64,000 nucleotides of DNA from Pseudomonas mohnii. GTDB taxonomy: Bacteria > Pseudomonadota > Gammaproteobacteria > Pseudomonadales > Pseudomonadaceae. Where the stretch lies: positions 2,414,001 through 2,478,000 of the forward strand of contig NZ_FNRV01000001.1 in assembly GCF_900105115.1 (NCBI RefSeq), written 5' to 3'. Within the stretch, counting starts at the first letter, position 1. Every line of letters starts with the position of its first letter. A program made the position numbers and the translations under genes. Positions 4,306 to 11,965 of the stretch are shown piece after piece. The notes beneath the pieces were generated by a model. The model worked only from the letters and a program-made list of their open reading frames with translations, was not told where the DNA came from and did no database searches.

Positions 4306-5301
4306 ATGTCTAACCAAGCCTCCACGCCCCTGCGGCGCGTCAGCATCCTGGCTATCGACCGGGTTTTCGCTTCCACCCTCATGCAAGCCAAGGATTTCTT
4401 CCACCTCGCCAGCCTGCGCTACGGCAAACAGCTGGGCCACGGCCTGACACCGGCGTTCGAAACACGCCTGGTCAGCCCCGACGGCCAGTCGGTCAACACG
4501 TTCAGTGATGTGAAGATCCCGGTAGACGGCGGCCTGGAAAATGCCGACATCATTGTCATTCCGGCCTTCTGGGACGATTTCGACACCCTGAGCAAACGTT
4601 ATCCACAGGTCCTGCCCTGGCTGCGCCAGCAACATGCCCGTGGCGCGGTGCTCTGCGGCGAAGCGACCGGCGTGTTCTGGCTGGCCGAGGCCGGACTGTT
4701 AAACGGCAAGGAAGCAACCACCTACTGGCGCTTCTTCAATGCCTTCGCCGAACGCTTCCCGCAGGTCCAGCTCAACCAGGACAAACATCTGACCGACGCT
4801 GACAACCTGTACTGCGCCGGCGGCACCACATCGGCGTGTGATCTCTATATCTATCTGATCGAGCGTTTCTGCGGCGCCAATGTGTCCCAGGCCGTGGCAC
4901 GGGACATTCTTTATGAAGTCCAGCGCAGCTACTCACCGGGTCGCATCGGCTTTGGCGGACAAAAGCTGCATCAAGACGTGATCATCCTGCAGATCCAGCA
5001 TTGGCTCGAAGAACACTTTGCCGACAAGTTCCGCTTCGAAGATGTCGCCCGCGAACACGGCATGAGCATCCGTAACTTCATGCGCCGCTTCCAGACCGCC
5101 ACCGGCGACAAGCCCCTGCACTACCTGCAACGCCTGCGCATCGAAACCGCCAAGGGGCTGCTGTCCGGGAGCCGCAAGAGCATCAAGACCATCAGCTACG
5201 AAGTCGGCTACGACGATGCGAGCTTCTTCGCACGCCTGTTCCGCCAGCACACTGAGCTGTCGCCGAACCAGTATCGGCAGCAGTTTCAGCAGGCGGCGTA
5301 A
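4306..5301 (+). CDS. GlxA-type AraC-family transcriptional regulator
   Basis: The product is 331 residues. The N-terminal half (about 10-190) is a DJ-1/PfpI, class I amidotransferase-like domain, with VIPAFWDDFDT and VLCGEATGVFWLAEAGLLNGK as landmarks. The C-terminal 110 residues hold two AraC-type helix-turn-helix motifs, with FEDVAREHGMSIRNFMRRF as the first and IKTISYEVGYDDASFFARLF as the second. Family members sense small amines or amino acids (choline, carnitine and arginine regulators belong here), but the ligand is not evident. The gene starts 144 bases from the divergent acyl-CoA dehydrogenase and ends at a terminator, so it is not co-transcribed with the following cassette. Confidence 0.93.
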   Translation: MSNQASTPLRRVSILAIDRVFASTLMQAKDFFHLASLRYGKQLGHGLTPAFETRLVSPDGQSVNTFSDVKIPVDGGLENADIIVIPAFWDDFDTLSKRYPQVLPWLRQQHARGAVLCGEATGVFWLAEAGLLNGKEATTYWRFFNAFAERFPQVQLNQDKHLTDADNLYCAGGTTSACDLYIYLIERFCGANVSQAVARDILYEVQRSYSPGRIGFGGQKLHQDVIILQIQHWLEEHFADKFRFEDVAREHGMSIRNFMRRFQTATGDKPLHYLQRLRIETAKGLLSGSRKSIKTISYEVGYDDASFFARLFRQHTELSPNQYRQQFQQAA

Positions 5302-5307
5302 TTGGAT

Positions 5308-5338
5308 AAAAAAGGGTCTGCATCGCAGACCCTTTTTT
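5308..5338. terminator. Bidirectional terminator
   Basis: AAAAAAGGGTCTG and CAGACCCTTTTTT form an almost perfect palindrome with a small loop, giving T runs on both strands. It lies just after the AraC-family gene and marks the left border of the accessory cassette. Confidence 0.92.
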
Positions 5339-5473
5339 CATTGAACATTCATTGCCTACAAAAAAAGCGGAAAGCGGAGCACCTCAGCACCCGACTTGGC
5401 TGATATACGCTACGCGCTCCAAACTTCAACATCGTCCCTGCAAAAAACATCAGTACTGTCAGGGAAGATCACA

Positions 5474-7420
5474 ATGACTATAGGTTCAAGCTACAACTAC
5501 CCTTCATTCGCAGCCAAGGAAACCACTCGAACAAAGCGCTCGACTGACAACAAATGGGCTGCCCGCTTTCCCAATCCACCAGACTTGTGTTTCGACTATC
5601 GATCACTGGTTGAACAGGCAAACGGAATAGCGAAGGCTACTTCCCTCGATCACCGAATTTGCATCATCGGTGCAGGCGTAACCGGACTAACCGCCGCCCG
5701 TGAACTGTATCGCTGCGGTTTCACCAATATCACCCTCATAGAACAATCCCGCCGCATAGGGGGCAGGCACTTAACCATCCCGGGAAGCCCTAACTCCACG
5801 GAAAGTCATACTCCCTTTGAACTGGGGGCAATGCGCATGCCCTTTTTCAACCGGGCAGACGAGCCACCAACAGATGGCAGGTCTCTAATGGCTTACTACG
5901 CCAAGGCGTTTGAGTTGTCGTTTTCAGACTTTGCCAATCCTGGAAGTCAGTGGGTTCGCTCGACCGGCATCTATCTCAGAGAAGGTAGCGTGGGCAACAG
6001 CGGGACGCCGCAGATGTTGATTTGGAAAAATGCCGATGGCTTGACCCCACCTCCCGGCGAGGATCTGCAGAAGGTCTATGCCAAGTGGAAGGATTTCGCC
6101 GATCGCATGACAAAACATGTTGCAGAAATTTACGCCAGTCAGAAATGGGAAAGCATGTGGGCTGCAATCGTTAAAAAGTACGAGGGCGTCTCATTTCGCG
6201 ATCTGGTCAGTATGCCGGCCCTGACAACCTGGGATGAACGTTCGCCCGGTGACTTTGGCGGAATGGGAATGTCTGCAGAAGAATCCGCGATTTTCTATGC
6301 AATCGGCATCGGTGACGGGAGCTGGGGAGCTTTTTATGACGTCTGCTGCCTTTATCCACTGCGAACTGCCATTTTTGGGTTCAGCAGTCAGTTGCAACTG
6401 ATCCACGGTCGGGTAAACGCTGCCGGAGACCCACTAGCCTCACCCTACCTCCACAGCAACACAGTTTCTGACTCGGCGGGATTGAGCTTCGATGCCCCGC
6501 GCTACATCGGACTCGCCGCTTTGGACGAATCTCTGATGTTCCTGAAAACCGCCGAAACCGGAAAATCCGTTTATGAACACAGTCTCGAAAGAAGCAATGG
6601 CCTCCTCACAGATTCGTCCGTTACAAAACTAAAAAAACTGACTAATCAGAAGATACGCGTCTACTTCAACTGGAAACACAGTCAGGCCGAGCAAACCCAG
6701 GAGCGCTTCGAAGACTTTGATTCGGTCATCATGACCCTACCGTCTTGGTTAATAGAGACTCGAATCGAACTGAAAAACTTCACTCAGGAGATGCTGCCAT
6801 TCGAGATAATCAACGCCTACAAAACGGCACACTGGGAAACCAGCTGCAAAGTCTATGCACCGTTGAAAAAATCATTTCTTTCGAAAAACCACAAAATTCC
6901 GCAAACCATCGTTACCGATAGTTTTATCCACGATGTCTACACCTATCGCTACAACGATCACTACAGCTATGACTGCATCCTGTTGAGTTATACATGGGAG
7001 GATGACGCAACAAAACTTGCCTCATTCACCGACAAGGAATTGGTTACCAAGTGCGCCAAAGAGCTTGATCGCATCCTGATGAACGCCACCAATATTCAGG
7101 AGAAAATTTCCCCTTACATTGGCATTGAGCAGGCAGTGGTTCAACGCTGGATAACGGACAAAAACGCCTTGGGTTGTGCAAAGCTCTACCGGCCCGGGAC
7201 CTATTACGATGCCGTGAGCCTGATGAAGTACAACAGGGACTTTGCGCGTACTTCAGGCCTGTATTTTTCTGGTGAGTCATTTTCAGTCGACGCTGGCTGG
7301 ACGGAACCTTGCTTTCGGACGGCTGTTGATGCGGTTATTCACATCTGTGACAAAACCGCAGCCATTTTCAATGGCGGTTTTTCCATGAGTGACTATCCAC
7401 ACTACAAACTCAAAACCTGA
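5474..7420 (+). CDS. Flavin amine oxidase family, tryptophan/phenylalanine 2-monooxygenase-like
   Basis: The product is 648 residues from the ATG at 5474, chosen because GGGAAG lies about seven bases upstream; the frame is open for 26 more codons. The FAD-binding motif RICIIGAGVTGLTAARELY is at about residues 61-80, preceded by an unusually long 60-residue N-terminal arm. Later marks are GGRH, ELGAMRMPFF, LLSYTWEDDATKL and, near the end, GESFSVDAGWTEPCF. These are typical of bacterial amino acid 2-monooxygenases (IaaM, L-phenylalanine 2-monooxygenase, DavB), which oxidatively decarboxylate an amino acid to its amide. An amidase gene directly downstream fits that reaction. A plain L-amino acid oxidase is the main alternative. 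The substrate is unknown. Base composition is clearly more A/T-rich than the flanking genes, which suggests acquisition. Confidence 0.82.
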   Translation: MTIGSSYNYPSFAAKETTRTKRSTDNKWAARFPNPPDLCFDYRSLVEQANGIAKATSLDHRICIIGAGVTGLTAARELYRCGFTNITLIEQSRRIGGRHLTIPGSPNSTESHTPFELGAMRMPFFNRADEPPTDGRSLMAYYAKAFELSFSDFANPGSQWVRSTGIYLREGSVGNSGTPQMLIWKNADGLTPPPGEDLQKVYAKWKDFADRMTKHVAEIYASQKWESMWAAIVKKYEGVSFRDLVSMPALTTWDERSPGDFGGMGMSAEESAIFYAIGIGDGSWGAFYDVCCLYPLRTAIFGFSSQLQLIHGRVNAAGDPLASPYLHSNTVSDSAGLSFDAPRYIGLAALDESLMFLKTAETGKSVYEHSLERSNGLLTDSSVTKLKKLTNQKIRVYFNWKHSQAEQTQERFEDFDSVIMTLPSWLIETRIELKNFTQEMLPFEIINAYKTAHWETSCKVYAPLKKSFLSKNHKIPQTIVTDSFIHDVYTYRYNDHYSYDCILLSYTWEDDATKLASFTDKELVTKCAKELDRILMNATNIQEKISPYIGIEQAVVQRWITDKNALGCAKLYRPGTYYDAVSLMKYNRDFARTSGLYFSGESFSVDAGWTEPCFRTAVDAVIHICDKTAAIFNGGFSMSDYPHYKLKT

Positions 7421-7432
7421 TCCCCCCCGTTT

Positions 7433-7465
7433 AGAGCCATGCAGGTCTGGCTTGGCTCTGCTTTT
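7433..7465 (+). terminator. Weak hairpin terminator or attenuator inside the cassette
   Basis: AGAGCCA (7433-7439) pairs with TGGCTCT (7453-7459), followed by GCTTTT. The hairpin stands 13 bases after the monooxygenase-like gene and 160 bases before the amidase start. It could reduce read-through or protect the upstream message from 3' decay. Confidence 0.55.
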
Positions 7466-7624
7466 CCCCCTGACCAGGCCGACGAACAAAAACGCCTCGC
7501 TCATACATCTTCGGATAAAGGCTACAGCCATACCGGAAGCATCCGACTTACGCCAGCTGGCTTTTGGACTCTTATAAACACGCAATTAAACAGCGTGAAT
7601 AACAATAAAAAGAGGTCACCCGAA

Positions 7625-8512
7625 ATGAGCGAGCCAACAAGCCCCGTTCGTGTAGCAGTCGTGCAATTCGATCCACAAGTCGGTATCGAGAATTGTGATG
7701 CAAATCTGCGTCGCAGCCAGGAGTTGGCGTTGGAGGCGGTAACCGGCGGTGCGAACCTCATCGTTCTGCCTGAGCTATCCAGCACCGGCTATTTCTTCAG
7801 CAATAGGCAGGATGCCTTTGAACACGCGCAGCTGATTCCCGGCGGGCCATGCGCACAACTCTGGATCGACTTCGCCTCCGAGCACAATGTGTACCTCGTA
7901 GCCGGCTTGGCGGAGCGCGACGGCATGCAGCTCTTTAACACCGCAATGCTGGTCGGCCCTGGCGGCTTTATCGGCAAGTATCGAAAAGCCCATTTATGGA
8001 ATCTGGAGAAACTCTGGTTCACACCGGGCGATCTCGGTTTTCCGGTTTTTGATACACCCATTGGCCGTATCGGAATGTTGATCTGCTGGGATATCTGGTT
8101 CCCCGAGGTGCCGCGCATTCTGAGCCAACAGGGCGCCGACATCATCTGCAGTCTCAACAACTGGGTCTGGACACCTCCGCCGCTGTTCGATGATGCCGGC
8201 AAGTGCATGGCGTCGTACCTCACGATGACAGCAGCCCACGTCAACAATGTGTTTATTGCAGCTGCCAGCCGAATCGGTGAAGAACGAGGTGCCCGCTACT
8301 TGGGCTGCTCACTGATTGCCGGGACCAATGGTTGGCCGATTGGCGCGGTAGCATCGGCAGACCAGCAGGAAATCCTGTTTGCCGATATTGACCTGACAGC
8401 CTCTCGCAGCGCCCCTATTTGGAACAACCTGAACGACTTGCATCGTGATCGTCGAGCCGATCTCTACGATCAAATGCTCGGTTACACCCAACACCCATGC
8501 CTCCCGCGCTGA
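7625..8512 (+). CDS. Nitrilase-superfamily carbon-nitrogen hydrolase (probable amidase)
   Basis: The product is 295 residues with the Glu-Lys-Cys catalytic triad of the nitrilase fold: E50 in VLPELSSTGYF, K121 in GKYRKAHLW and C154 in MLICWDIWFPE. Members hydrolyse amides, carbamoyl groups or nitriles through a thioester. The immediate neighbourhood of an amino acid 2-monooxygenase-like gene suggests it hydrolyses that enzyme's amide product, as DavA does after DavB; this is inference. The start at 7625 (MSEPTSPVRVAVVQFDP) follows AAGAGGT by about eight bases. The frame is open back to 7439, but that extension does not look like protein and covers the hairpin at 7433-7465. The next gene begins 17 bases after the stop, so they are co-transcribed. 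Confidence 0.88.
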   Translation: MSEPTSPVRVAVVQFDPQVGIENCDANLRRSQELALEAVTGGANLIVLPELSSTGYFFSNRQDAFEHAQLIPGGPCAQLWIDFASEHNVYLVAGLAERDGMQLFNTAMLVGPGGFIGKYRKAHLWNLEKLWFTPGDLGFPVFDTPIGRIGMLICWDIWFPEVPRILSQQGADIICSLNNWVWTPPPLFDDAGKCMASYLTMTAAHVNNVFIAAASRIGEERGARYLGCSLIAGTNGWPIGAVASADQQEILFADIDLTASRSAPIWNNLNDLHRDRRADLYDQMLGYTQHPCLPR

Positions 8513-8529
8513 TGAGGGGGACCTGACTC

Positions 8530-9729
8530 ATGGTAACCACAACCGATAAAAACCAGTCTGCCCCCAGATCACCATTTGATGTAGCCGTCCTCCTGCTGAT
8601 GATCGGCACGACACTGCTGATTATCTGGCTTTCACTCACCTATCGTTCGTTCTGGTCCGCCCATTGGCCGAGTTACAGCGATATGGTATCGAGCCTTCCC
8701 CAGCCGAGTGCCTGGCTGCGCTGGCTGATGGGCGACATCAGCGAGGTGGCATTCTATAAACACGAATTCGCCTCAATAGGACTGTTGGCGGGCGCCTATC
8801 TCGCCTACTGGGCGAATCGAACGAGGAGATCTTGGCAAGGCTTCAGCATTTCTTATGGCACAGGGCTATGGCCGTGGCTGATCACCAGTTCGCTACTCGG
8901 GTTACTGCTGAGCAACGCACTGTGGGGGTGGACAGTGACCACCACCAGTTGGCAACCGACATTTGCCGCGTTCGTTTCGCTACCAGCGGCTATGGTGCTG
9001 ATGTTTGGCGGCGGCTGGAAGGTCACGATCAACGGCGCAATCATGGGTGCCGTATTCGTCACACCAATGTGCCTGCTGATCGTCAATTACGTGTGTAACC
9101 CGCTGGGGTTGCCGGCAGTGATCGGAAATGTTCTGGGGATGGCAGTTGCCAGTGTCATGGCATTTCTGCTCTACCGCTACTGGCCGAGCCTGATGAAGTC
9201 CGAACACCCCAAGACACCGCCCTCCTCGCCCCCTGCACCCGCCACCAATGCCCCGGACTACGGGGTCATCTGGAGCATACGCCGGGTCCTGGCAGATTTT
9301 TCCGAAGCGCCATTTTTCGGTAACGAACTGGCTAGCCTCGGCTTGTTACTGGGGGTACTGCTGGCTTACACCATGAACCCGATGAGCCCGGCGTACGGTT
9401 CAGGCCTGTTGCTGCACATTATCGCTGCACAGGCACTGACCTCGGCCATCGGCGTGCTGATCTGGCGTCGACAATGGAAGCTACACGGCTGGTATCCCAC
9501 TTATGTTCCCCTGGTGTCAGTGGTGCCAGCCGCGATCCTGACCCATGGTGGCAGTTGGCTAGTGATCGGTTCAAGTGCATTGCTGGGGGCGTTAATCGCC
9601 CCCCCTCTGGCCAGAGCGATTACCAAGCAACTGCCGACCGACATGCATGCCTACATCGGCAATGTCCTATCCATGGCCATCAGCACGGCGCTGATCGTGC
9701 CGCTGATCGGCGTTCTTATCGCGGAGTAA
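8530..9729 (+). CDS. Polytopic membrane protein with a direct internal duplication
   Basis: I do not recognise this 399-residue protein. It is strongly hydrophobic with perhaps 11-13 membrane segments, a short cytoplasm-like N-terminus and a proline-rich linker at about 225-245 (HPKTPPSSPPAPATNAP). The two halves resemble each other. GDISEVAFYKHEFASIGLLAGAYLAY (68-93, cited by ends GDISE and AYLAY) matches ADFSE...VLLAY (255-280). SWQPTF...GGGWKV (140-164) matches GWYPTY...GGSWLV (320-344). AVIGNVLGMA (196-205) matches AYIGNVLSMA (374-383). Such duplications are common in transporters, so a carrier for the cassette's substrate or product is a fair guess. It starts with ATG at 8530 after a GAGGGGG-type ribosome site and follows the amidase by 17 bases. 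Confidence 0.8.
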   Translation: MVTTTDKNQSAPRSPFDVAVLLLMIGTTLLIIWLSLTYRSFWSAHWPSYSDMVSSLPQPSAWLRWLMGDISEVAFYKHEFASIGLLAGAYLAYWANRTRRSWQGFSISYGTGLWPWLITSSLLGLLLSNALWGWTVTTTSWQPTFAAFVSLPAAMVLMFGGGWKVTINGAIMGAVFVTPMCLLIVNYVCNPLGLPAVIGNVLGMAVASVMAFLLYRYWPSLMKSEHPKTPPSSPPAPATNAPDYGVIWSIRRVLADFSEAPFFGNELASLGLLLGVLLAYTMNPMSPAYGSGLLLHIIAAQALTSAIGVLIWRRQWKLHGWYPTYVPLVSVVPAAILTHGGSWLVIGSSALLGALIAPPLARAITKQLPTDMHAYIGNVLSMAISTALIVPLIGVLIAE

Positions 9730-9805
9730 ATGCTACCCACCTTTCGGCTGTATCCGTCTCGAACCGGGTACAGCCACTTCTCTTCCCGAACACGCGAGGT
9801 ATCAC

Positions 9806-10789
9806 ATGGATCTGCCTGAACTTGCCATCGCGGCGCTCGGCGGCACAGTGAGCATGCAAGCCAGAAATGCCGGCGAAGCCGTTATCCCGACAGTCAGCGG
9901 CGAAACCCTGCTCGCCTCTGTACCAGAGTTGACGACATTGGCCAGGGTGTCAGTTGAAACGCTTGGATTGTTACCAAGCGCATCCTTAAGTTTCGAGTTT
10001 TTGCTGGGCGTCCTTTCCTGGGCGAAAGATCAGATTGCACAAGGCGTCATTGGTGTTGTCATTACCCAAGGCACCGACACCCTCGAAGAAACCGCCCTAT
10101 TTTTCGAGTACTTGTGGGACCACCAGGAACCATTGGTCCTGACAGGCGCCATGCGTTCGGCAAAGCAGGCGGGAGCCGAAGGACCGGCAAACCTGCTCGA
10201 CGCTTGCCGAGTCGCATTGGCTGACAACAGTCGACAACGCGGCGTTCAGGTCGTCATGAACGGAGAGATTCATGAAGCGCGCTACGTACGAAAAACCGAT
10301 TCACTGGCACTGCATGCGTTTTCCTCCCCGGTCTTTGGACCCACAGGTTTGCTCGTCGAAGGCGTCGTTCGCTATCTACGGCAGCCAACGCCGCGCATGC
10401 TTTTGCCGCTGCCACAACACACCACACAAAACGTCGCGATGCTGGAGGCGTCACTTTCTGCCGATACCCTGCTATTGGATAGCATCCTTGAACTGGGCTA
10501 CGACGGGCTCGTGATCGCTGGTTTCGGAGCCGGACATCTCTCGGAGCATTGGGCCTGCGCCATTGAGCGCATCGCTCAAAGAATCCCTGTGATAGTCGCC
10601 ACCCGTACTGGCTCCGGCTCCACCGCGCAATCGTCGTACGGATTTATTGGCGGTGAGGTGGACTTGAGTCGCAAGGGTGCATTGATGGCCGGTTTTCTCT
10701 GCCCGCGCAAAGCCAGGATCCTGCTCTGGTTGCTCCTCGGCTCCCAGCGAGAAAATGAGCTGGCGCGCTACCTCAACAACACTGCATAA
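9806..10789 (+). CDS. Asparaginase-fold amidohydrolase
   Basis: The product is 327 residues, the usual size for bacterial type I/II asparaginases. It has the nucleophile motif LGGTVSM with T14, the second motif TQGTDTLEET with T90-D91, the TGAMRSAKQAGAEGP segment and K163 in RYVRKTDS, so the Thr-Thr-Asp-Lys set appears intact. No signal peptide is visible, so it should be cytoplasmic. Substrate-shaping regions look divergent, for example VGLxx is replaced in the N-terminal flexible loop. Hydrolysis of another amide produced in the same pathway is therefore as plausible as asparagine use. It starts 76 bases after the membrane protein and ends at a bidirectional terminator, closing the cassette. 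Confidence 0.87.
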   Translation: MDLPELAIAALGGTVSMQARNAGEAVIPTVSGETLLASVPELTTLARVSVETLGLLPSASLSFEFLLGVLSWAKDQIAQGVIGVVITQGTDTLEETALFFEYLWDHQEPLVLTGAMRSAKQAGAEGPANLLDACRVALADNSRQRGVQVVMNGEIHEARYVRKTDSLALHAFSSPVFGPTGLLVEGVVRYLRQPTPRMLLPLPQHTTQNVAMLEASLSADTLLLDSILELGYDGLVIAGFGAGHLSEHWACAIERIAQRIPVIVATRTGSGSTAQSSYGFIGGEVDLSRKGALMAGFLCPRKARILLWLLLGSQRENELARYLNNTA

Positions 10790-10824
10790 ACCCTATTCAG
10801 TCCCGCAGGGAATCTCCAGCCGAT

Positions 10825-10857
10825 AAAAAAGGGCCTGCATGTGCAGGCCCTTTTTGT
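10825..10857. terminator. Bidirectional terminator
   Basis: AAAAAAGGGCCTGCA and TGCAGGCCCTTTTT form a long perfect stem between two convergent genes, with a T run on each strand. It marks the right border of the accessory cassette and serves zapE on the minus strand. Confidence 0.93.
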
Positions 10858-10870
10858 ATTCCGAAATATC

Positions 10871-11965
10871 CTACGGCTTGTGCGGACGCGACAGGAATTC
10901 GTGGGACTGCATTTCCAGCAGGCGGCTGAGGGTGCGCTGAAATTCAAAGTTCAGGCGACCGCCGGTGTAGAGATCCTTGAGCTCGACTTCGGCAGAAATG
11001 ATCAGTTTCACGTTACGGTCGTAGAACTCGTCGACCATGTTGATGAAGCGTCGGGCGATGTCGTCGGTGGTGACGCTCATCTGCTCGACACCGCTGAGCA
11101 ACACAGCGTGGAAGATCTTGCCCAGTTCGATGTAGTCGTTCTGGCTGCGCGGGCCGTCGCAGAGTTCGCGGAAGTCGAACCAGGCCACGTCATCGCAGGT
11201 GCGCAGGGCACGGATTTCGCGGTTTTCGATCATCAGCACATCATTCTCGATCGCTGCCGTGCACTCTGGCGTCAGCGCACGGAAGCTTTTGCGCAGGCTT
11301 TCGTGGGACGCTTCGTCGAGCGGATAGTGGAACAGCTCCGCTTGTTCGAGGTGGCGCAGACGGTAATCGACGCCGCTGTCGACGTTGACGATTTCGGTGT
11401 TCTGCTTGATCAGCGCAATGGCCGGCAAGAAGCGAGCGCGCTGCAAGCCGTCCTTGTACAGGCCGTCCGGCACGATGTTCGAGGTCGCGACCAGGGTTAC
11501 GCCGTTCTTGAACAGTTCTTCCATCAAGGTGCCAAGGATCATGGCGTCGGTGATGTCGGAAACGAAGAACTCATCGAAGCAGATCACCCGGGCTTCGGTG
11601 GAGAAACGCTTGGCGATGATGGTCAGCGGGTTTTTCTCGCCGCCCAGGGTCTTCATCTCTTCGTGCACGCGCTTCATGAAGCGGTGGAAGTGAGTGCGGG
11701 ACTTTTCCTTGAACGGCAGCGCCTCGAAGAAGGTGTCGACCAGGTAAGTCTTGCCGCGACCCACGCCACCCCAGAAGTACAGGCCTTTGACCGGGGTCTG
11801 ATCCTTCTTGCCAAACAGTTTGCCCAGCAGGCCCGGTTTGTTCTGCTCGGCTGCGACCAGATCGTCATACAGGCGCTGCAAATGACGCACAGCCGTTTCC
11901 TGCGCAGCGTCATGGAAGAATTCCGGGCGTTTCAGATCAGCTTGATATCGTTCTAGGGGCGTCAT
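10871..11965 (-). CDS. zapE: Cell division protein ZapE (AFG1-like ATPase)
   Basis: ZapE is an AAA-type ATPase associated with the Z ring in Gammaproteobacteria. The 364-residue product starts MTPLERYQADLKRPEF, the usual opening of the family. It has a Walker A motif in WGGVGRGKTYLVDTF, a Walker B motif in VICFDEFFVSD and the sensor-like LVATSNIVPDGLYKDGLQR. The gene is the usual size for the family (about 360-375 residues). It lies next to trpS on the same strand, an arrangement I recall in other pseudomonads. Confidence 0.96.
   Translation of the reverse strand: MTPLERYQADLKRPEFFHDAAQETAVRHLQRLYDDLVAAEQNKPGLLGKLFGKKDQTPVKGLYFWGGVGRGKTYLVDTFFEALPFKEKSRTHFHRFMKRVHEEMKTLGGEKNPLTIIAKRFSTEARVICFDEFFVSDITDAMILGTLMEELFKNGVTLVATSNIVPDGLYKDGLQRARFLPAIALIKQNTEIVNVDSGVDYRLRHLEQAELFHYPLDEASHESLRKSFRALTPECTAAIENDVLMIENREIRALRTCDDVAWFDFRELCDGPRSQNDYIELGKIFHAVLLSGVEQMSVTTDDIARRFINMVDEFYDRNVKLIISAEVELKDLYTGGRLNFEFQRTLSRLLEMQSHEFLSRPHKP

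Follow-up and report, generated by a model that had tools for sequence, protein, structure and literature searches.

A conserved Pseudomonas gene cassette with a DavB/DavA-like enzyme pair, of which the flavoprotein is optional, and a predicted urea transporter-fold protein

Genes and borders of the cassette

A 64,000-nucleotide stretch of the 6.59 Mb Pseudomonas mohnii genome (the window) contains four genes in one direction, which encode a flavoprotein (here FMO), a nitrilase-fold amidase (NIT), a membrane protein (MEM) and an asparaginase-fold amidohydrolase (ASN). This cassette is conserved and, in the searches made, occurs in Pseudomonas only. A preliminary description of the window had viewed the genes as one bounded unit, and each gene, together with the terminator on either side, is confirmed (Table 1): all genes lie on the plus strand, and both terminators fold far better than shuffled sequences (RNA fold of positions 5300-5345, -21.3 kcal/mol, z -6.5; positions 10818-10862, z -5.5). 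The start of FMO is placed at the ATG at 5474, giving 648 amino acids (aa), the commonest length among the homologues listed; the mechanical open reading frame call begins earlier, at a TTG at 5396. For NIT we chose the ATG at 7625, with AAGAGG upstream; an alternative open reading frame start lies at 7439. Names of neighboring genes (ZapE, TrpS and others) were assigned by eye, except for AraC.

Table 1. Features of the cassette and its borders (positions in the window)
Feature	Positions	Strand	Evidence
FMO: flavoprotein, flavin adenine dinucleotide (FAD) amine-oxidase family, L-amino acid 2-monooxygenase/oxidase-like, 648 aa	5474..7420	+	PF01593
NIT: CN_hydrolase (nitrilase-fold) amidase, 295 aa	7625..8512	+	PF00795, triad E50/K121/C154
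MEM: membrane protein with internal duplication, 399 aa, predicted urea transporter (UT/SLC14) fold	8530..9729	+	
ASN: amidohydrolase, asparaginase fold, 327 aa	9806..10789	+	PF00710, PF17763, catalytic T/T/D/K
Left-border terminator, behind the AraC/GlxA-type regulator gene	5308..5338	+	sequence, RNA fold
Hairpin between MEM and ASN, then weak T-rich tail (putative)	9746..9775	+	fold z -3.5
Right-border terminator	10825..10857	+	sequence, RNA fold
Upstream neighbor: AraC/GlxA-type regulator gene	4306-5301		
Downstream neighbor: ZapE-type ATPase gene	10871-11965	minus	

FMO matched the Pfam family Amino_oxidase (PF01593; E 2.6e-28, 99.9 bits against 19.8), and its best PDB match was tryptophan 2-monooxygenase (TMO; 4iv9, E 4e-29), with L-amino acid oxidases next. 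NIT matched CN_hydrolase (PF00795; E 3.9e-50), and its triad was intact in 132 of 135 loci (at least 60% identity). The exceptions were a partial hit (L144) and two loci lacking both FMO and MEM (L162 and L163, genomes G091 and G141), in which the catalytic Cys is replaced by Gly; these copies are probably decaying remnants. The Glu-Lys-Cys triad and the Pfam match together allow NIT to be assigned to the nitrilase superfamily. NIT scored below the curated cut-offs of two narrower models, the N-carbamoylputrescine amidase equivalog (TIGR03381; 155.0 bits, cut-off 410.25) and the nitrilase equivalog NF040852 (224.3 bits, cut-off 500). The best PDB matches of NIT were 3ivz (E 3e-61), 1j31 (PH0642), 6ypa and 7ovg, which we take to be Pyrococcus enzymes; the P. 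horikoshii one is an amidase whose structure was reportedly determined with acetamide and with glutaramide.

ASN matched PF00710 (E 4.1e-50) and PF17763 (E 5.4e-23), and 95 of 96 loci retain its catalytic Thr, Thr, Asp and Lys; the remaining locus is a partial hit. These features bear out the asparaginase fold suggested earlier and allow ASN to be placed, at the level of sequence, in the asparaginase/glutaminase superfamily. ASN scored below the cut-off of the type II asparaginase model (TIGR00520; 190.6 bits, cut-off 314.3), and inspection by eye revealed no evident signal peptide. The two halves of MEM are 33% identical over 148 columns (E 1e-14), in agreement with the duplication noted in the preliminary description. 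The putative carrier named there stands as a membrane protein, and its assignment is changed to a predicted urea transporter fold. Its only Pfam match was sub-threshold, to ThrE (E 2.5e-4); MEM fell short of the gathering score of this threonine/serine exporter family (PF06738; 21.0 bits, gathering score 26.3), and 36 of 59 MEM members matched this family at E up to 10, with 2.5e-4 the best value. Elsewhere, the same genome encodes a canonical urea transporter (PF03253; L209, G000:C1:1731563-1732351).

Distribution, gene loss and chromosomal sites

The same 298 Pseudomonas genomes were searched for all four genes. With a threshold of E 1e-30, FMO matched in 78 genomes (63 near full length and 15 fragments, classed by eye), NIT in 111 at E 1e-80 (107 without four of about 50% identity), MEM in 103 at E 1e-40 and ASN in 71 at E 1e-60. 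Near-full-length FMO never occurred without NIT and MEM in this set (63/63), and all four genes were present in 47 of the 63 genomes; among those with FMO fragments, NIT and MEM were each found in 14 of 15. NIT occurred without an FMO match, at the FMO threshold of E 1e-30, in 30 genomes, 24 of them with MEM and 12 with ASN, and short FMO remnants were still visible in two (G199 and G225; L148 and L159). Some drafts are cut by a contig end before NIT (e.g., L135), so that FMO is not proven absent from every one of the 30. Overall, NIT and MEM occurred together in 101 genomes, NIT only in 6, MEM only in 2 and neither in 189 (Fisher p 2e-69, kinship uncorrected). At the same chromosomal sites, some loci lack FMO cleanly (e.g., L133, L145, L146 and L158), and others retain only remnants of it (e.g., L148, L161 and L166-L172).

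Since NIT is found without FMO or beside its remnants, mostly together with MEM, the core of the cassette is NIT-MEM, and FMO depends on this core. The preliminary description had treated the set as a four-gene module. The four families do co-occur elsewhere, mostly in the same order and at several chromosomal sites across Pseudomonas, and a unit that recurs in this way is not due to chance; an equal partnership, however, is not what the data reveal, because NIT-MEM persists without FMO and ASN was not found in 16 of 63 FMO-positive genomes. Gene order varies at some loci: in L045, L108 and L111, MEM lies upstream of FMO rather than following NIT, and L051 and L116 have two MEM genes. The main groups are common to the FMO and NIT trees (32 rows), in which 13 of 28 NIT branches are well supported and many are weak, and the pairwise distances of the four genes are correlated with one another (r 0.85-0.91). 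The most economical history is therefore inheritance of the cassette as a single unit, from which FMO was lost repeatedly.

In the window, the AraC and ZapE genes are 5.6 kb apart. In 16 cassette-free genomes, hand-picked from the no-match list for an empty-site test, the AraC gene was always present and the ZapE gene lay beside it in 15, at a distance of about 69-277 bp; in the exception (L177), no ZapE was found within the fetched stretch. The cassette is thus inserted between otherwise adjacent genes, as had been proposed from a presumed closeness of PA4436 and PA4438 in PAO1; the equivalent claim was tested on the 16 other genomes. Several empty sites have terminators similar to the right border adjoining the ZapE gene, and a left-hand copy resembling the right-hand terminator is present in only a few other loci at the window's site (site A). 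AraC, FMO and ZapE occur together in 50 loci among L033-L132; because two fetch routes may give one genome twice, these are counts of loci and not of independent strains.

Another cassette site lies downstream of 16S rRNA (motif in five loci) and of a gene that, by eye, is acetolactate-synthase-like; most strains with this site bear the name P. putida or that of a relative, and further sites exist. An rRNA operon is located a few kb upstream of FMO in L046, L047, L048 and L050. In L103, L104, L106, L113, L119, L120, L125-L129 and L131, the contig breaks off 0.2-2.5 kb upstream of FMO, likely because of such an rRNA operon; several of these assemblies carry the name P. putida or that of a relative. 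In P. fluorescens FW300-N2E3 (cassette in record NZ_CP012830), about 2.2 kb separate the AraC gene from FMO (L066:7764-10001), and this gap holds another AraC-type gene, divergent and encoded on the other strand. Fitness work with pools of this strain has been reported (PMC9007349); its main text uses neither the term amidase nor the term asparaginase.

The cassette had also been described as A/T-rich. This applies mainly to FMO (GC content 0.503; 0.573 at third codon positions) and not to the cassette as a whole: NIT, MEM and ASN have values of 0.568-0.577, and the window 0.594. Compared with the locus in which the gene lies, GC content was lower in 94 of 100 loci for FMO, 39 of 99 for NIT, 16 of 99 for MEM and 7 of 77 for ASN. 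Low GC is FMO's own property across its family.

Predicted activities and competing explanations

A further pair of genes in the window's genome, on the minus strand at about 3.878-3.881 Mb of G000:C1 (L222, G000:C1:3874000-3885000), encodes proteins that we name, partly from a motif, DavB and DavA. Residue positions transfer directly from the L-amino acid oxidase/monooxygenase l-AAO/MOG, since this DavB has the plug-loop motif given in PMC5832979. According to the same paper, R102 and Y416 of l-AAO/MOG hold the alpha-carboxylate and W516 belongs to the cage; specificity is shaped by W235 and D238, with F244 and V247 as their counterparts in TMO and F316 and L319 in PAO; and the D238F variant acts on Leu, Met and Phe. 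Eight FMO positions (R121, W284, F287, K459, Y506, W508, G608 and W609) were invariant in all 98 copies. In the DavB-based alignment R121, Y506, W508 and W609 are conserved, W284 falls at position 235, F287 at 238, F303 at 254 and G608 at 515. Two identities do not agree with these residues: lysine 2-monooxygenase (DavB), which requires an acidic residue at 238 where FMO has F287, and tryptophan 2-monooxygenase (IaaM), whose wide pocket has F244, V247 and G518, with W284 and F287 of FMO differing and G608 agreeing. Read by homology at 21% identity, the FMO pocket speaks against both lysine and tryptophan and favors a hydrophobic side chain.

The family and structure matches and the comparison with the genome's own davBA sustain the earlier view of an amino acid 2-monooxygenase/oxidase-family flavoprotein adjoining a nitrilase-fold amidase, as in DavB-DavA. 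On balance, and with modest confidence, we read the cassette as a whole as an amide-handling module with an optional amino acid feeder. FMO would convert an L-amino acid, probably a hydrophobic one (Leu, Met or Phe), by oxidative decarboxylation to CO2 and an amide, rather than a keto acid, that is one carbon shorter, and NIT would hydrolyze this amide to the acid and ammonia. MEM may be a UT-fold channel through which a small neutral amide, or else urea or ammonia, crosses the inner membrane, and ASN may hydrolyze a second, carboxylate-bearing amide. NIT and MEM would act as the core, also on amides from outside, to which FMO adds an intracellular supply. Most likely the cassette is a counterpart of DavBA that acts on another amino acid and has in addition MEM, with its predicted UT fold, and an extra amidohydrolase, the oxidase being dispensable.

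Several results weigh against this reading. ASN is hard to accommodate should the amide be a simple monoamide, and it was not found at E 1e-60 in the 16 FMO-positive genomes mentioned above. C254, which controls the choice between oxidase and monooxygenase in l-AAO/MOG, is F303 in FMO, and this choice is therefore not readable from sequence. The predicted MEM fold comes from one AlphaFold2 model, whose best Foldseek match had an E of 0.018 (query template modeling scores 0.41-0.54), with no Foldseek match at E 0.001 or better. PF03253 was absent among the families matched by 59 MEM members at E up to 10, a search whose filters drop most weak matches, and hhalign of MEM against PF03253 gave a probability of 0.4 for the full length and at most 10.6 for the halves. 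Finally, median dN/dS (nonsynonymous to synonymous substitution ratio) in FMO-less or remnant loci was 0.108 for NIT and 0.189 for MEM, compared with 0.064 and 0.131 in loci with FMO; the values without FMO are lower than neutral but, being higher than those with it, indicate somewhat relaxed constraint on both genes. For ASN the corresponding values were 0.129 and 0.134, from only 5 usable pairs. The dN/dS pairs are non-independent and span time before FMO loss, and L162 and L163 were left out.

We regard it as unlikely that FMO is a plain L-amino acid oxidase (producing keto acid, ammonia and H2O2) and NIT an omega-amidase on a keto-acid amide, e.g., glutamine-derived 2-oxoglutaramate. In FMO's PDB list, 4iv9 is indeed followed by L-amino acid oxidases, starting at E 6e-22, and by L-glutamate oxidase at E 2e-12, and NIT has some resemblance to nitrilase homolog 2 (2w1v, E 7e-24) and a deaminated-glutathione amidase model (E 3e-16), yet FMO's best match is a 2-monooxygenase, the neighbor pairing mirrors davBA, and the predicted hydrophobic ceiling formed by F287 does not favor Gln. 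The same residue counts against a diamide route, which would account for two amidohydrolases: FMO would convert Gln or Asn to succinamide or malonamide, of which NIT would remove one amide and ASN, as an asparaginase adapted to a substrate lacking the alpha-amino group, the other. Here Ser-Ala and GAG of ASN align with Ser-Gln and GNG of asparaginase 5k4g, at places that presumably lie at the alpha-amino group of the substrate, which we assume the 5k4g Gln touches; one of the closest solved relatives of NIT was reportedly bound to glutaramide. ASN's best solved match, 9d91, nevertheless also bears the name asparaginase, with Ser-Pro and GAG at the corresponding positions, so the changes alone do not exclude asparagine, and with ASN not found in 16 of 63 FMO genomes we consider this route very unlikely.

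Highly improbable, in our judgment, is a nitrile route in which NIT would be a nitrilase converting 3-cyanoalanine or a similar compound to asparagine for hydrolysis by ASN. A route with NIT4 nitrilase and asparaginase is described in PMC8567248, and the best NCBIfam model for NIT, although below its cut-off, is named nitrilase (NF040852); plant NIT4 (6i00), however, matches NIT at E 2e-18, much more weakly than 3ivz, and FMO and the UT-fold MEM would be left unexplained. The least probable of the explanations considered is an auxin route from Trp through indole-3-acetamide to indole-3-acetate, which the preliminary description had offered. Its appeal is that some FMO homologues are named 'tryptophan 2-monooxygenase' in databases and that the best PDB match is this enzyme. 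F244 and V247 of TMO nevertheless contrast with W284 and F287 of FMO (the TMO alignment is weak here, but the DavB alignment gives the same register), and the cassette hydrolase belongs to PF00795, whereas a synteny rule in PMC12462448 assigns PF01593 with PF00795 to lysine and PF01593 with PF01425 to tryptophan. Conversion of Trp to indole-3-acetate is unsupported because the predicted FMO pocket differs from that of the Trp enzyme and the hydrolase lies outside the amidase-signature family. Tryptophan 2-monooxygenase genes in Pseudomonas are mentioned in PMC3596284, PMC3390384 and PMC8719888.

If the amide-handling module is real, Pseudomonas has a second route from an amino acid through an amide to an acid, beside DavBA for lysine, with its own small-amide channel, and the MEM family extends the urea-channel fold to proteins missed by sequence profiles. 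Current naming would then mislead, both in the tryptophan 2-monooxygenase labels and in the synteny rule of PMC12462448, which types the cassette as lysine catabolism. A bolder version, which we think quite unlikely, is that the amide is a shared metabolite: FMO-positive strains would produce a small neutral amide able to pass membranes through MEM, and FMO-negative strains with NIT-MEM at the same site would consume the amide of their neighbors, a producer/consumer polymorphism within a single cassette, MEM being a UT-fold amide channel so far seen in Pseudomonas only and missed by profiles. Since the oxidase has been lost repeatedly while the amidase and the putative channel were retained, strains that differ in it allow a direct test of which ones make the amide and which consume it.

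Comparison with known systems

The lysine 2-monooxygenase/5-aminovaleramide amidase pair DavB-DavA consists of the same two families as FMO-NIT, side by side and in the same order. FMO is 21% identical to the genome's own DavB over 613 columns, and NIT 34% to its DavA over 282. The cassette differs in having Phe in place of the D238-type specificity residue, in the additional MEM and ASN, in the persistence of FMO-less versions and in its coexistence with a separate davBA in the same genome. Relative to l-AAO/MOG of Pseudomonas sp. AIU 813, FMO conserves the alpha-carboxylate residues and the aromatic cage Trp but has D238, C254 and A515 changed to F, F and G. In the pair IaaM-IaaH (tryptophan 2-monooxygenase and indoleacetamide hydrolase), TMO is the best PDB match of FMO and has the stretch SYTWEDDA in common with it, but the pocket residues differ, and the amidase superfamily of IaaH differs from that of NIT. 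MEM has no detectable sequence relationship to the UT/SLC14 family (PF03253). NIT has an extra stretch near WTPPPLFD compared with its closest solved relatives, the archaeal nitrilases/amidases (3ivz, 1j31, 6ypa and 7ovg), and ASN has the fold and catalytic T/T/D/K of type II asparaginases, with Ser-Ala replacing Ser-Gln of 5k4g.

Relatives of NIT and ASN also occur in AmiC-sensor amide operons with urea/amide ATP-binding cassette (ABC) uptake systems in four Pseudomonas genomes. These operons (L164, L165, L223 and L224) have the order NIT relative, binding protein, LivH, LivM/G, LivF, ASN relative and AmiC-like protein, with the full set in 4/4 genomes; the NIT relatives are 51-52% and the ASN relatives 35-38% identical, and the structures matched by the two L165 binding proteins are of the urea type and AmiC. 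FMO and MEM gave zero matches in the four fetched stretches. Thus, such enzymes pair elsewhere with a urea/amide-type importer and without FMO, and by analogy this pairing fits MEM as a candidate small-amide channel.
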